Part shown: positions 2,646 through 31,655 of the stretch, in pieces
Layout: every line of letters begins with the position of its first letter
How positions within the stretch are numbered: the stretch's first letter is position 1
Virus record (IMG/VR): IMGVR_UViG_3300006789_000025
Span: 1-59,470 of that record
Strand: one strand, 5' to 3'
From: a virus
Length of the DNA stretch: 59,470 nt
Translations under genes and position numbers: made by a program
The notes under the pieces: model-generated
Databases searched by the model: none
What the model was told of the DNA's origin: nothing
The model's input: the letters and a program-made list of their open reading frames with translations, nothing else

Positions 2646-3692
2646 TTATTGCCATGAAGAGTGTCCTTCACAAATTGTGCCATAGCGTGATAGGAAAAAA
2701 TTTAAGTCATATATGTCTACTGTACCGCTATAGTTGAAGTCTCCTTCCGGACAATCAGTCTGACCCCAACAACCAAGGACTGACAATAAGTCTGTAAGGC
2801 CAACCACATAGTCACCGTTCACATCGCAGAAACAAATAGGAAGCCCACCAAATAAACCACCTCGGTTATAAGAAAGCATGTTGTGCATGCGCTCTATCTG
2901 ACCGGGGGTGAAGTGATGTCGGCATGAGTCAGGGTAGTAGTCCATATGATTGTCAGCCGTATAGTTATACAAAGCTTCCGGACACATAGGTGGGTCGCAG
3001 CTCCACTGTACTTTAGTGGGAGGGGTGTCGCAGACAAAGTCACCATACGCATGACATGGTATACCATTGCTGTCACCGCAGTTGCCTACCGATTGGAACA
3101 CATGGTGTAACCCGCAGTAGTGACCCATCTCATGAGTCAATACCTTGTTCTCATTATTGCGCGGGTGAGTACTCCCTAATCCGAATATGTCAGACCGTAG
3201 CCATATACCGTCTCGACTATTGTTCTCCGATACAGTAACATAAGACCAACCCAATATGCTGCTGCACATCTTTGGTATCACATAGATATTACAATAGTGG
3301 TCAGGGTCGTAGTCGGGGACGTATTGGTCTACAGCTAGTATAGCATTTTGAGTGCCATAAGTAGGGAAGCACCAACTACCCCCTGACTCGTAAGAAGGGT
3401 ACCAAGCGTACTCCTCTAAATCTTGATAACCGATATACTCAAGGCTAACCGATATCATAGCCTCAGACATATCATCGTTCAAGTCCGCAATAGCCTGCTC
3501 AACATACTCCTCACTGAACCAACCACCCAAGCTGTCAGAGTAACATATGTGAACTACCACAGGTATCTCTTTCCATTCAGGTTCAGAAAAGAAAACAGGG
3601 AAGTCATAAACTATAGAGTCGTATGCAGTGCCGCAAAACTCTTGGGATAAAACAAAGGAGGGAAAGAGAAGAAGGAATAGAAGTAATCGCAT
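2646..3692 (-). CDS. Secreted pappalysin-type (M43) metalloprotease with dockerin-like tail
   Basis: This 348-aa protein begins with a signal peptide (MRLLLFLLLFPSFVLSQ). The zinc-binding motif HEMGHYCGLHH is at residues 187-197. The Met-turn HMDYYPDSC, followed by FTPGQIERM, matches the pappalysin/ulilysin family (M43), which cleaves extracellular proteins. Residues about 288-335 hold two calcium-loop repeats (DVNGDYVVGLTDLL and DFNYSGTVDIYDLN), the layout of a type I dockerin. Many Cys pairs suggest disulphides and export. It lies just upstream of groEL on the same strand, with 32 bases between them. A secreted protease on a phage suggests modification of the host surface or exported proteins; the target is unknown. 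Acquisition from a bacterium is likely but untested. Confidence 0.85.
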   Translation of the reverse strand: MRLLLFLLLFPSFVLSQEFCGTAYDSIVYDFPVFFSEPEWKEIPVVVHICYSDSLGGWFSEEYVEQAIADLNDDMSEAMISVSLEYIGYQDLEEYAWYPSYESGGSWCFPTYGTQNAILAVDQYVPDYDPDHYCNIYVIPKMCSSILGWSYVTVSENNSRDGIWLRSDIFGLGSTHPRNNENKVLTHEMGHYCGLHHVFQSVGNCGDSNGIPCHAYGDFVCDTPPTKVQWSCDPPMCPEALYNYTADNHMDYYPDSCRHHFTPGQIERMHNMLSYNRGGLFGGLPICFCDVNGDYVVGLTDLLSVLGCWGQTDCPEGDFNYSGTVDIYDLNFFLSRYGTICEGHSSWQ

Positions 3693-4530: not shown

Positions 4531-4560
4531 TTGAATTAGACAATGAATGTACTATCTTTG
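4531..4560 (+). promoter_or_regulatory. Early promoter P1 (Bacteroidetes type)
   Basis: TTG at 4531 and TATCTTTG at 4553-4560 are 19 nt apart, matching the Bacteroidetes -33/-7 consensus. The spacer contains GAATTAGACA, which also occurs in P2 and P3, so these are copies of one promoter. The predicted start near 4567 leaves a leader of about 37 nt ending TCTCTCTC before the ATG at 4604. Confidence 0.8.
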
Positions 4561-4603
4561 CAAAGCGAAGAGACAAACCCCCTTCGCAATTAATCTCTCT
4601 CTC

Positions 4604-5272
4604 ATGTTTAATAACTTAAACGAACTCGAAGTATCATACTTCACATCCTTCAATGCAAACGGCACTACGCTTGCAAAGTTCTACACTGCTCAGAAGAGCA
4701 TCAAGAAATCAGGGAACACCCTATTCGAGAAGCGCATCAAGCTATGGCATCAGGTTGACGAGCTGTGGTCAGCTTTCAACTCCGACGAAGAGAAGGCACG
4801 ACGAGCGGAAGCAGGCATCACGATGAACTCAACTGACTTCTCCAAGAAGGTGCTTGGCTACAAGGACAGGAGCATGAAGAACGACATGCTTCGTGCTGTA
4901 GACAAGATGCGCAACAACAGCGAACTGATGACAGCCTACAAGCGCGAGATGACTCGTCTCGGCAAGGGGCGTTCGCTTGCTACCTTCAATAAGTTTGCCA
5001 ATGCAGTGGAAGCGCAGGTCTCCAAGGGTGCTACGACTGACGAAGCTGCTGAAGCTACTGCTGATGCTCAAGCTACTGCTGATGCTGTATCGTACGTTGC
5101 TCAACTGCAGTTCTTAGGATTGCAGAGCGGACGTGTAGCTCTCAAGGAGGACGGCTCATTCGATTTCACTTCGGTGAACCTACAGCAGGCACTCGAAGGT
5201 GCGAAGAGTTTCTACGAGCTACTTGCGGCAGAAGCAGTGCGACGGGTCAACGAGCAAGCTCCTGCAATCTAA
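4604..5272 (+). CDS. Hypothetical early protein
   Basis: This 222-aa protein is the first gene of the plus-strand arm. The start at 4604 is chosen because it follows the TAATCTCTCTCTC leader shared by other early genes; a longer in-frame start at 4547 lies within promoter P1. The sequence is mostly helical and charged, with an Ala/Thr-rich stretch (DEAAEATADAQATADAVSY) at about residues 145-163. No catalytic motif or known domain is recognised. Being first and driven by a strong promoter suggests an abundant early protein. It is followed at once by a repeat hairpin and the type I hammerhead ribozyme. Confidence 0.75.
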   Translation: MFNNLNELEVSYFTSFNANGTTLAKFYTAQKSIKKSGNTLFEKRIKLWHQVDELWSAFNSDEEKARRAEAGITMNSTDFSKKVLGYKDRSMKNDMLRAVDKMRNNSELMTAYKREMTRLGKGRSLATFNKFANAVEAQVSKGATTDEAAEATADAQATADAVSYVAQLQFLGLQSGRVALKEDGSFDFTSVNLQQALEGAKSFYELLAAEAVRRVNEQAPAI

Positions 5273-5292
5273 GTGGGGGTTCAAACCCTCAC
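5273..5292. repeat. Dispersed G-rich hairpin repeat, copy 2
   Basis: GTGGGGGTTCAAACCCTCAC starts at the base after the stop codon of the 4604-5272 gene and ends 3 nt before the type I hammerhead. One G-U wobble replaces a G-C pair. Confidence 0.8.
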
Positions 5293-5295
5293 TCA

Positions 5296-5345
5296 GTTAC
5301 ACTGATGAGACCTGAATGGTCGAAACGTCGCGAGACGTCTGTAAC
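5296..5345 (+). ncRNA. Hammerhead ribozyme, type I
   Basis: All conserved hammerhead elements are present in order. Stem I is GTTACA (5296-5301) pairing TGTAAC (5340-5345), 6/6. CTGATGA (5302-5308) follows. Stem II is GACC/GGTC (5309-5312, 5318-5321) with loop TGAAT. GAA is at 5322-5324. Stem III is ACGTC/GACGT (5325-5329, 5334-5338) closed by a GCGA tetraloop. The cleavage triplet is GTC, so the predicted cut is between C5339 and T5340. Stem I is the open stem, hence type I. It lies on the coding strand, and cleavage leaves a 23-nt leader before the amidoligase ATG at 5363. Confidence 0.93.
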
Positions 5346-5362
5346 AATCTAATCTCTCTCTC

Positions 5363-6340
5363 ATGATTAACTACACAACAGATTCAAACAGCTACCGAGG
5401 AACCCTCATGGGTTACCATGGCTCTCCTGCTCCGCAGGACTTCCGCTCGGGAGCATCCGTCTCGGATATCGCAGGCTTGCGTCCTGTAGACCGAGCATCC
5501 CTCAAGCAGGTAAGCCTGATGGAGATTGGTGCTAAGTACGGCATCGGCTTCGAGGTTGAGAAGACATCCTTCGCTCGCAATGCGATGAAGGCACTTCCAT
5601 TGTTCGCAGGTTACGAGCGTGACTCGTCTTGTGGATACGAAGCAGTGACCAACATCCTGCCTTTGCTCCCTGCATCGGAATGGCGCAACAAGGTGTACGC
5701 CATGTTCCATCAGGCGGAGCGCATCTTGGATGACGAATGGTCACCATCCAACGAACGCTGTGGTGGTCACATCACCCTGTCCTGTGACGGCATCGGTGGT
5801 GAGCTATTGATGGAGCACATCCGTCCTTACTGCGGCATCCTGCTCTCGCTGTATCGCAGACGATTGAAGAACAGCTACTGCGCACGCAATCCAAACCTGC
5901 GCGTATCTCATGAGGTGGAGAGTGCCTTTCGCGGAATCGCTTCCAAGTACAATGTTGCCAAGGTGATGGGGCATGGCATTGAGTTTCGTCTTCCATCACG
6001 AGTGCGCTCGGTGAACGACATGAAGCGCAGGTACGAGCTGATGTACGTCTTGGTTGACTGCGCTCGCCAATCGTTCGAAGGCAATCCTCCGACATGGGCG
6101 AAGGCGATGTCACGCATCAAGCCAATCGTCAGCCTGATGTACGGAAACGAAGCGAAGGAGCAGAAGATTCTATCTCTCGCCAAGGACATGCAGAAGTTCA
6201 TCAACACCGGCAAGATGGAATTCTCAGTGCTCCCGTTCATTGACCCGTATGCTGAATCAGCAGAATCCTTCAGGACGCGACGATGCAACCGACAGCTTGC
6301 GCAGGGTGAGCGAGCTTACTACAGGGATTTGAGATGGTGA
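5363..6340 (+). CDS. Amidoligase-like (carboxylate-amine ligase) protein
   Basis: This 325-aa protein carries the motif series of the glutamine-synthetase-like amidoligase superfamily: GFEVEK at 62-67 (the GxExE metal/ATP strand), RDSSCGYEAVTNILP at 86-100, CGGHITLS at 133-140, and a C-terminal HGIEFRLPSRV strand near 205. Members join a carboxyl group to an amine using ATP and are predicted to modify proteins or build peptide conjugates. The substrate is unknown. The start follows the AATCTCTCTCTC leader. The gene is flanked by a type I hammerhead 5' and a type III hammerhead 3', each next to a repeat hairpin. The downstream amidotransferase-cyclotransferase fusion (8238-9269) is a plausible partner. 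The assignment is by motif only. Confidence 0.75.
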   Translation: MINYTTDSNSYRGTLMGYHGSPAPQDFRSGASVSDIAGLRPVDRASLKQVSLMEIGAKYGIGFEVEKTSFARNAMKALPLFAGYERDSSCGYEAVTNILPLLPASEWRNKVYAMFHQAERILDDEWSPSNERCGGHITLSCDGIGGELLMEHIRPYCGILLSLYRRRLKNSYCARNPNLRVSHEVESAFRGIASKYNVAKVMGHGIEFRLPSRVRSVNDMKRRYELMYVLVDCARQSFEGNPPTWAKAMSRIKPIVSLMYGNEAKEQKILSLAKDMQKFINTGKMEFSVLPFIDPYAESAESFRTRRCNRQLAQGERAYYRDLRW

Positions 6341-6347
6341 GACCTTT

Positions 6348-6371
6348 GGGTGGGGGTTCAAACCCTCACCC
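6348..6371. repeat. Dispersed G-rich hairpin repeat, copy 3
   Basis: The core GTGGGGGTTCAAACCCTCAC (6350-6369) is extended by GG/CC on each side to a 9-bp stem with one wobble. It abuts the type III hammerhead. After ribozyme cleavage it would stand 6 nt from the new 3' end of the amidoligase RNA. Confidence 0.8.
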
Positions 6372-6422
6372 GCTGTCGGGCGATGTGCATCGCTCCTGAT
6401 GAGTCCGAAAGGACGAAACAGC
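6372..6422 (+). ncRNA. Hammerhead ribozyme, type III
   Basis: Stem III is GCTGT (6372-6376) with ACAGC (6418-6422). The cleavage triplet GTC predicts a cut between C6377 and G6378. Stem I is GGGCGATG (6378-6385) with CATCGCTC (6388-6395), containing one G-U. CTGATGA is at 6396-6402. Stem II is GTCC/GGAC (6403-6406, 6411-6414) with a GAAA tetraloop, and GAA is at 6415-6417. Every core base matches consensus. The open stem is III. It lies in the 3' region of the amidoligase gene, upstream of promoter P2. Confidence 0.95.
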
Positions 6423-6462
6423 AGTTCACAATATATTGTTAATAACTTTTAACACTTATCAT

Positions 6463-6493
6463 TTGGAATTAGACATTCATTGCACTATATTTG
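6463..6493 (+). promoter_or_regulatory. Early promoter P2
   Basis: TTG at 6463 and TATATTTG at 6486-6493 are separated by 20 nt and share the GGAATTAGACA spacer with P3. It restarts transcription just after the type III hammerhead and serves the genes from 6542 on. Confidence 0.8.
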
Positions 6494-6541
6494 TACTATC
6501 AATCACGGAGGAACACTCCTCCACTAAAATCTCTCTCTATC

Positions 6542-7016: not shown

Positions 7017-7031
7017 ATAAATCTCTCTCTC

Positions 7032-7292
7032 ATGAAATTCTATAGAACATTCATGGTCTCGTACCAAGCCCCAACAGAACACAAGGGTGCACGAGTCCGA
7101 ATCAAAGACCTCTCCGAAGGCACACGCATCTTCATCCCATTCAACTACGAGTTGAACACCATCACTGAGATGGCGAAGGCTCACCTTAAATCAATTGGGA
7201 TTCCAATCGTAGCTGAAGCCCTCACCCACAAATCAGGATGGGACTCTTACCTGCTACTCTCGAACGAGTACGTAATCCTCCTTGAGAAATGA
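7032..7292 (+). CDS. Hypothetical early protein
   Basis: This 86-aa protein starts MKFYRTFMVSYQAP directly after AATCTCTCTCTC; the in-frame start at 6996 lies inside the repeat hairpin and is rejected. It has alternating short strands and helices (GARVRIKDLSEGTRIFIPF, then TEMAKAHLKSIGIPIVAEAL) and no Cys or recognised motif. Its stop overlaps the next ATG (ATGA). It belongs to a chain of small coupled early genes of unknown function. Confidence 0.65.
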   Translation: MKFYRTFMVSYQAPTEHKGARVRIKDLSEGTRIFIPFNYELNTITEMAKAHLKSIGIPIVAEALTHKSGWDSYLLLSNEYVILLEK

Positions 7293-29567: not shown

Positions 29568-31655
29568 TTAATCTAAAGGGCCACCACCACCTGTGGTAAT
29601 AGCTTGAAGTTCATCAAAATTCTCAAGCCCTAAGTTAGCAAACATATTGGCAGTAATCTGATTCCCTTTTGCTCTTTCGTCTATAATAATATTATTGACA
29701 GCAAGCCATTGAGCTTCAGTTAAGTTTGCAGGGAACTTAATGGCAGGCTCCATAACATTAGGAATTCCTAAGTTTACGTATGGTTGGTCGGTGTTGCTAA
29801 CAAAAGCACTCCCGCTTTCAATCTCAACAACTCCATTAGTTGCCTGTGCATCTGCGATGCCTGCTGTTTTAAGGAATGAATCAAAGGCATTCATAGTGGC
29901 TAATGATGTAGCCGTTTCATCACCCTGTTCCTGTGGAGCTGACTCCTTAGCAAGATTGATTAGGGAGATTTCTTCTCCGAAACCATCATCAACAGTATCA
30001 TTCATGGTAAGCTTCTGAGCTTCAGGCTCAGGGGCGGGAGCATCAAAACCAAATGGTTTCTCTCCCGTAGTTTGAGAGTGACGGTTTAATCCATCTGTGA
30101 TGCCTGACGCTTTAAGCATAGCCCCTACGTCAGCTGCGTTTCTTACATTGTCAGGTAAGATAGCGGTGACTAGTGATTCTACAAACTGCTCTACGTTATC
30201 ACCCTTAGTGATTGGTGTTCTAGGTTGAACACTTCCATCCTTAAGCAAGTCGTTAACAATAACCTGAGAGCCATCTTCAGAAAAAGAAATCGAGTGTACC
30301 TCATCATTAAGGCCCGCCAAGAAATTTCCTGCAGCCTGAAACTCTTGTTGAACTGCATCGTTATAAGATTGTAGCTCTTCGTTAGTAGCATTAGCAACAT
30401 CTATCGGTGGGATACTTGTACCCCAAAGCTTAGCCAAGTTGGTAACAGCTTGTTCTGCTTGCTTCTTAGCGGACCCTGACTTGCGCTCACCTTCAGTTTG
30501 CGCTCGTTTCTCTCTAGCCTCATAGCCTGTCTCTTTAAAGTTAAGCTTAGACTCTACGCTAGTTCTAACTGTGTCCTCAGCGGCTTTATATTGAGCGTCT
30601 CTATTGGCGAACAAAGCTTCAACCTCATCATTGCTTAATCCACTTTCTCGAAGTTGCGCTTTATATGCCTCCTCATTTTCAACTCCAAACATAGGTACCA
30701 TTGCACCTGAAGAAGGTTGCATTGGATTGGGAACCATCAAGATTAAGTTTGGGTCTTTAGCAGCGGCCTTAGGGTCTTGAGTAAATTCATACAGCCCGTC
30801 ACCATCAGGGTTTAACCTAAGGGTATTGGTCAATACGGATGTTACGTTAGTAGGCGAAGCAAGCTGACCATTAACAGCATCAGATATAGCACTCACAATA
30901 GCAGGTTGCGCCAATGGATTTTCTCGCTCCTTAACTCCGCCTGCCATGATTGCATCTATACGAGTGCCTAATGAAGCAGCAATGGTGTCGGTAGATTTAT
31001 TTATATCGTAAATATCGTACTTAGCATTGAGCCTATTGCGAAGCTCATTTACAGGGGCATACGCTCCCGGATTCTCTTGCATCCTTGCGGTAATTCCTAA
31101 ACCATCCTCAGAATCTACCATGTCTTTTTTCCCAAGGAGAACCTTTCCATCAGTAGGATTAATCCATAAGCGGGAAGAGCTAAAGTTTCCAAGACCACGC
31201 GTAGAATTCATCATGTATTCCTCTAGTGCTTGAGCTTGAGGAAGCCCTGTTTCAGGGTCTACCTCCATACGCTTTTGCAATTCAGCGTACTTGGTATTAA
31301 ACTCTTTTCCAAACTCAAACGCTTCAGTAGTTCCTTGCTGTAGATTGGCTCGGATATTTGTGTAGTCCCTGACATTCATCTGTCCTGACTTCAAAAGCCT
31401 TTCTACCTGAAGGGCATATTCCGCTGTATCAGTAGAGAACTGAGTGGTCCAATCATTAAACCCTTGGTGGTCACCAAGAGGTTGGTTATTGATGTACTCA
31501 TTAAAATCTTTAATGCCGTCATCAATAGCCGCCTTCTTTTCCTGACGGATACGAGCTTCCTCGTTAACCACATCAGACATCTGACGGCCAACCTCATTCC
31601 AATTAATCTGAGATTCCGCACTTCGCTCCGCATACTTATAAAATGTCTTAGCCAT
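29568..31655 (-). CDS. Internal virion protein (cargo), 695 aa
   Basis: A large, mostly helical protein without membrane segments. It starts MAKTFYKYAERSAESQINW; the first third is rich in Glu/Gln/Asn helices (IRQEKKAAIDDGIKDFNEYI). Middle parts have Lys/Glu-rich coiled stretches (ETGYEAREKRAQTEGERKSG). The C-terminus is more globular and Ala/Asn-rich. The place between a 274-aa virion protein and the giant ejection protein fits the middle-sized internal protein of podoviruses (functional analogue of T7 gp15). No enzyme motif identified. Function by position. Confidence 0.6.
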   Translation of the reverse strand: MAKTFYKYAERSAESQINWNEVGRQMSDVVNEEARIRQEKKAAIDDGIKDFNEYINNQPLGDHQGFNDWTTQFSTDTAEYALQVERLLKSGQMNVRDYTNIRANLQQGTTEAFEFGKEFNTKYAELQKRMEVDPETGLPQAQALEEYMMNSTRGLGNFSSSRLWINPTDGKVLLGKKDMVDSEDGLGITARMQENPGAYAPVNELRNRLNAKYDIYDINKSTDTIAASLGTRIDAIMAGGVKERENPLAQPAIVSAISDAVNGQLASPTNVTSVLTNTLRLNPDGDGLYEFTQDPKAAAKDPNLILMVPNPMQPSSGAMVPMFGVENEEAYKAQLRESGLSNDEVEALFANRDAQYKAAEDTVRTSVESKLNFKETGYEAREKRAQTEGERKSGSAKKQAEQAVTNLAKLWGTSIPPIDVANATNEELQSYNDAVQQEFQAAGNFLAGLNDEVHSISFSEDGSQVIVNDLLKDGSVQPRTPITKGDNVEQFVESLVTAILPDNVRNAADVGAMLKASGITDGLNRHSQTTGEKPFGFDAPAPEPEAQKLTMNDTVDDGFGEEISLINLAKESAPQEQGDETATSLATMNAFDSFLKTAGIADAQATNGVVEIESGSAFVSNTDQPYVNLGIPNVMEPAIKFPANLTEAQWLAVNNIIIDERAKGNQITANMFANLGLENFDELQAITTGGGGPLD

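Follow-up and report, generated by a model that had tools for sequence, protein, structure and literature searches.

The window, the whole 59,470-base viral record analysed here, is that of a tailed phage with matches to terminase, portal and primase/helicase families. The elements considered below lie on its plus strand in the order promoter, gene A, hairpin, type I ribozyme, amidoligase-like gene, hairpin, type III ribozyme, promoter. The operon is driven by a phage promoter of the Bacteroidota type (TTG-N19-TATCTTTG, positions 4531–4563, + strand), one of three exact copies. The next promoter (6463–6495, +), located by exact-copy search and by a promoter scan with the pattern TTG-N18-21-TAnnTTTG, begins 40 nt past the type III ribozyme. 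The motif GAATTAGACA-N5-TGYACTATNTTTG occurs in three exact copies in the window (4531, 6463 and 8176) versus 0 expected. Gene A (4604–5272, +), the upstream gene of the transcript, is an open reading frame with a gene at the same place in relatives; a Pfam search gave no match. At its 3′ end lies a repeat hairpin (5272–5293, +; folding energy −11.3 kcal/mol) that recurs genome-wide, with many copies in the window versus 0 expected, and a second copy of it, found by folding (6348–6371, +), runs straight into stem III of the type III ribozyme (gap of 0 nt). The window contains no full tRNA genes.

Three genes in the window share an identical leader, AATCTCTCTCTCATG (4592–4606, 5351–5365 and 7020–7034), which could serve translation initiation in a host that lacks Shine-Dalgarno sequences. 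Next to the operon, the minus strand (722–2613 and 2646–3692) carries phage genes of GroES/GroEL-like type and one for an M43-type metallopeptidase whose N-terminus is signal-like. A plasmid search returned no relatives. A search of genome contigs returned a single fragment (L125), which has no hammerheads and so points to no host.

The type I hammerhead (5296–5345, +; RF00163, E = 0.0024, 29.9 bits) was also recovered by a structural scanner and has homologues in the related loci L001, L002 and L003. The type III hammerhead (6372–6422, +; RF00008, E = 3e-7, 47.0 bits, match boundaries 6370–6424) is retained in most of 80 relatives. Default cmscan at the Rfam gathering threshold reported no hammerhead in the window because both score slightly below it (47.0 versus 48.5 bits and 29.9 versus 34 bits); they were detected by running cmscan in E-value mode. 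Both have the full core CUGAUGA/GAAA, three stems and a GUC cut site; the type III element fits the RF00008 definition (core CUGANGA/GAAA, UH cleavage site, stem III open) and the type I element that of RF00163 (same core, stem I open). Against an expectation of 0.04, two copies of the core pattern CTGATGAG..CGAAA were counted in the window, and the structural scanner gave 2 matches in 4.0 Mb of shuffled sequence. Minimum-energy folds of 5270–5350 and 6345–6425 consist of exactly a hairpin plus a complete hammerhead, and base changes in stem III of the type I ribozyme compensate each other (CGTC/GACG in the window versus CGCT/AGCG in L002). Judged by sequence, both are real hammerheads with intact cores and are predicted to self-cleave. 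The type I cut site lies between C5339 and T5340, 67 nt past the stop codon of gene A and 23 nt ahead of the next ATG, and the type III cut site between C6377 and G6378, 37 nt past the stop codon of the amidoligase-like gene. Thus, cmscan, core pattern and folds agree with the initial annotation, which had placed two hammerheads of different type here with cuts after C5339 and C6377.

The gene between the cuts (5363–6340, +; 325 aa) is predicted to encode a protein with a glutamine-synthetase/amidoligase-like fold. Its AlphaFold model has a pLDDT of 92.5, and Foldseek matched it to ligases of the glutamine-synthetase superfamily with probabilities of 0.96–1.0, at a TM-score of only ~0.3. The protein has no Pfam or PHROG match. 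The earlier label of amidoligase is therefore plausible, not proven. The two cuts would release an RNA of 1,038 nt (5340–6377, +), and its length, 23-nt leader and hairpin 6 nt from the 3′ end, all given previously, are correct from the cut sites and folds. Provided that both ribozymes are active, the layout implies that this RNA would carry a single gene, but in L002 and L003 the corresponding piece contains a second small open reading frame.

An alignment search returned 219 relatives, from which 80 loci were kept. In each of four close viral contigs (93, 91, 71 and 48% protein identity) ribozymes flank the gene 5′ and 3′. L001 and L002 carry type I followed by type III, L003 two of type I followed by type III, and L004 type III at both positions. 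A more distant relative with 39% identity, MW202828 (L005), has the gene without ribozymes and a different hairpin between its genes. This hairpin, GTGTCGTTAACGACAC, is repeated between many of them; intergenic palindromes seem to be particular to each phage group, with loops that are alike.

Across the ~80 loci sharing the gene, 151 hammerheads lie on the sense strand of the operon and 0 on the antisense strand. When 34 phage genomes were scanned whole, 70 of 71 scanner matches fell in this operon on the coding strand. A match at 30025 in G006, which sits inside a gene, was rejected as a false positive. Spacing is fixed: type III cuts lie mostly 31–47 nt past a stop codon, often with an ATG 64–70 nt further on, and type I cuts mostly 40–74 nt past a stop codon and mostly 18–27 nt ahead of an ATG. 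Covariation was assessed with 82 distinct candidates picked by core sequence alone: stem I was 91% paired versus 39–50% in slid controls, single positions showed as many as six pair types, and the test gave no antisense core matches. A hairpin of at least 6 bp precedes 100 of 105 type III ribozymes of the relatives (32 in shuffled sequence), mostly with a gap of 0 nt, and many type I ribozymes incorporate the hairpin in their stem III.

Several hammerheads in the survey depart from the consensus. L037, L062, L063, L069, L080, L084, L098 and L103 have U.U or A.A in place of the near-invariant G10.1-C11.1 pair; the core carries A9U in L071 and U4C in L003, where one of the two type I ribozymes has the core CCGAUGA. 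From their sequences, these altered ribozymes may be weak. In L060 the fossil of a type I hammerhead lies 5′ of the gene, its catalytic core lost and its stem III, GTC and 3′ strand of stem I kept. Short viral contigs without homologues of the tested window genes (L110–L124) carry one-strand hammerhead arrays such as III-I-I-I-I (for example L112 and L117).

The two flanks of the amidoligase-like gene differ in conservation. With a tree of 81 homologues, 80 loci could be assessed for a 3′ element, and a cutting element lies directly 3′ of the gene in 75 of them: 67 carry a type III hammerhead (59 regular, 8 with an altered core) and 8 a tRNA-like minihelix (L054 was scored as type III after correction of a frame artefact, and L044 as tRNA-like from a 25-bit match). 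None was found in L005, L032, L080, L081 and L085 by this search, which covered type I and type III hammerheads and tRNA-like minihelices. A 5′ element, in contrast, is present in only ~19 of 82 homologues, including all seven phages of the window's clade. The bracket, as judged from this distribution, is therefore a lineage-specific addition to a nearly universal predicted 3′ cut. The initial annotation had suggested a search of related phages for the same ribozyme-gene-ribozyme order; it is present in 7/7 phages of the window's clade and does not extend to most other homologues, and the gene occurs without either ribozyme in L005, L032, L081 and L085, an outcome that the initial annotation had listed as a refutation.

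The minihelices occupy the 3′ slot in L043, L044, L048, L055, L058, L072, L088 and L090. Each consists of an acceptor stem, a short linker that usually contains ATGGT and is perhaps D-loop-like, a T stem and a TTCGA T-loop, as in the example at L055:5859–5901. The minihelix scanner gave 27 sense matches and 0 antisense matches, with 0.33 in shuffled sequence; 12 pairs covary (0.708 versus 0.184 shuffled and at most 0.227 slid), and matches to covariance model R1 at E < 0.01 are all on the sense strand. Minihelices were also seen between genes of the operon in L043, L048, L055, L058, L059, L072, L083, L088, L089, L090 and L091. Two genomes read whole (G015 and G032) contain no hammerhead and at least four minihelices, two of which bracket the gene, and the contig of L055 (G048) contains four. 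A minihelix and a hammerhead never occur together in the 3′ slot, for which the chance probability is 4e-8 over loci and 5e-4 over four lineages. The tree needs four hammerhead/minihelix changes, at least two of which are forced by supported branches; on this phylogenetic evidence the tRNA-like element replaces the hammerhead in at least two lineages, and probably in four.

The compact minihelix family is absent from Rfam results at the gathering score. The element of L055 gave a weak 13.8-bit match, far under the gathering threshold, to mascRNA-menRNA (RF01684), a small RNA of tRNA-like shape on which RNase P and RNase Z act. That family belongs to an animal lncRNA and the element of L055 to a phage intergenic region, and the likeness is one of fold only. 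With an acceptor plus T stem of ~12 bp and a T-loop, the minihelix has the structure of a tRNA-like RNase P substrate, and acceptor/T-arm hairpins are cleaved by RNase P (PMC11143913). The family is a probable RNase P substrate. We lean, by a small measure, toward repeated swapping, at an obligatory cut that ends one gene, between a hammerhead fused to a hairpin and a miniature tRNA-like substrate of host RNase P. If true, a host-enzyme substrate would have functionally replaced a ribozyme, and this would reveal the purpose of at least one class of phage hammerhead.

Elements, conservation, spacing and strand are direct observations, and from them we infer cleavage in the infected cell. We consider it probable that the hairpin and hammerhead modules cut the transcript of one phage operon in cis into separate mRNAs. 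The modules would act from the intergenic slots of a single operon. Each upstream product would end in a hairpin (for type III, the hairpin plus ~6 nt) with a 2′,3′-cyclic phosphate, and each downstream product would begin with a 5′-OH, which for type I would lie ~20 nt ahead of the ATG and for type III at the ribozyme body, followed by a leader of ~20 nt. The essential cut would be the one 3′ of the amidoligase-like gene, with the 5′ cut an extra of a few clades, the window's among them; the 3′ ribozyme of the window would also part read-through RNA from the promoter at 4531 from the unit begun at the promoter at 6463. Transcript cutting itself seems to be what is selected, because two chemically unrelated means of cutting, the second being tRNA-like elements that we assume to be cleaved by RNase P, occupy one site. 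The presumed benefit would be separate stability or translation of the gene.

The ribozymes could instead be mainly 5′-leader devices that define a 5′-OH start near the downstream ATG, any effect on the upstream RNA being incidental. The position of type I cuts 18–27 nt ahead of an ATG would suit such a role, as would the leader of ~20 nt and ATG that often trail type III bodies. However, the type III ribozymes of the window and L001 precede a promoter and lead no gene, and what is conserved goes with one gene's 3′ end while the downstream gene varies. We therefore regard a leader function as unlikely.

Joining of the released RNA by RtcB or another ligase into a stable circular mRNA, a possibility raised in the initial annotation, finds no support here and is considerably less likely still. 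Ends with a 5′-OH and a 2′,3′-cyclic phosphate are RtcB substrates, so the predicted hammerhead ends would suit this enzyme, and in the window's clade predicted ribozymes cut both flanks. Several observations speak against a circle: (i) No RtcB or RNA_ligase family was found in 50 phage records, nor an RtcB match in the control genome of Bacteroides ihuae, although the real host could supply a ligase. (ii) The 5′ element is missing in most relatives, so that mostly no piece would be excised. (iii) The ends are not conserved, the 5′ site being type I or type III. (iv) Folding predicts no base-pairing between the ends of the excised RNA. (v) The tRNA-like replacements would give a 5′-phosphate and a 3′-OH; because RNase P/Z cuts leave these other ends, a function that needs RtcB-type ends could not be the shared one. 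(vi) Circular or spliced products of similar phage clusters were sought by Perreault et al. 2011 and not found (PMC3088659). Since 75 of 80 loci keep a 3′ cutting element, sometimes a tRNA-like one, cutting rather than a circle seems to be the point.

That the ribozymes are vestigial or selfish elements spreading among intergenic sites with no phage function has the least to recommend it and is highly improbable: element type and number do vary among phages, some cores are altered and L060 has its 5′ fossil, but the strand bias of 151 versus 0, the confinement to one operon, the fixed spacing, the covariation and the replacement of the ribozyme at the same site by an unrelated element all argue otherwise.

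The preferred reading, transcript cutting in cis, bears on the role of hammerheads in bacteria and phages, a matter described in the literature as open (PMC6155905). Because ribozymes have been gained, lost and replaced naturally at many orthologous sites by one gene, the role of phage hammerheads becomes directly testable, and the survey also yields a new compact tRNA-like element.

Among known systems, retrozymes carry their hammerheads within long direct repeats and pass through circular RNA intermediates (PMC4918200). As in retrozymes, two hammerheads would set the RNA ends here; unlike them, the two are different permutations and long direct repeats are absent, the longest direct repeats being 41 nt at 73% and 30 nt, and retrozyme identity was rejected on these grounds. 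Theta ribozymes have an HDV-like fold, lie beside tRNA genes and have been proposed to process tRNA 3′ trailers (Kienbeck et al. 2024; PMC10879173). The shared features are self-cleavage, a proposed role in RNA processing and occurrence in Caudoviricetes apparently infecting Bacteroidota and Bacillota, whereas here the ribozymes are hammerheads between protein genes in a window with no tRNA gene.

The closest precedent is the work of Perreault et al. 2011, in which clustered prophage hammerheads flank single genes or short blocks, with hammerhead types I–III marked in a figure, and phage transcripts were proposed to be cut into operon- or single-gene mRNAs (PMC3088659). Tandem phage hammerheads tested in that study cleaved in vitro, and one of them was active in E. 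coli as well (PMC3088659). The system of the window, a phage record with several coding-strand hammerheads flanking genes, fits their cluster definition; its bracket is thus of a previously described kind, and the earlier impression that no such case had been described does not hold (PMC3088659). The differences lie elsewhere. The genes flanked in those clusters were described as not constant (PMC3088659), whereas here the site follows one gene through a large phage group, the repeat hairpin is joined to the ribozyme and a tRNA-like element is exchanged for it. Gene-anchored conservation, the abutting hairpin-ribozyme module and the ribozyme/tRNA-like exchange are new within the open-licence part of PubMed Central.
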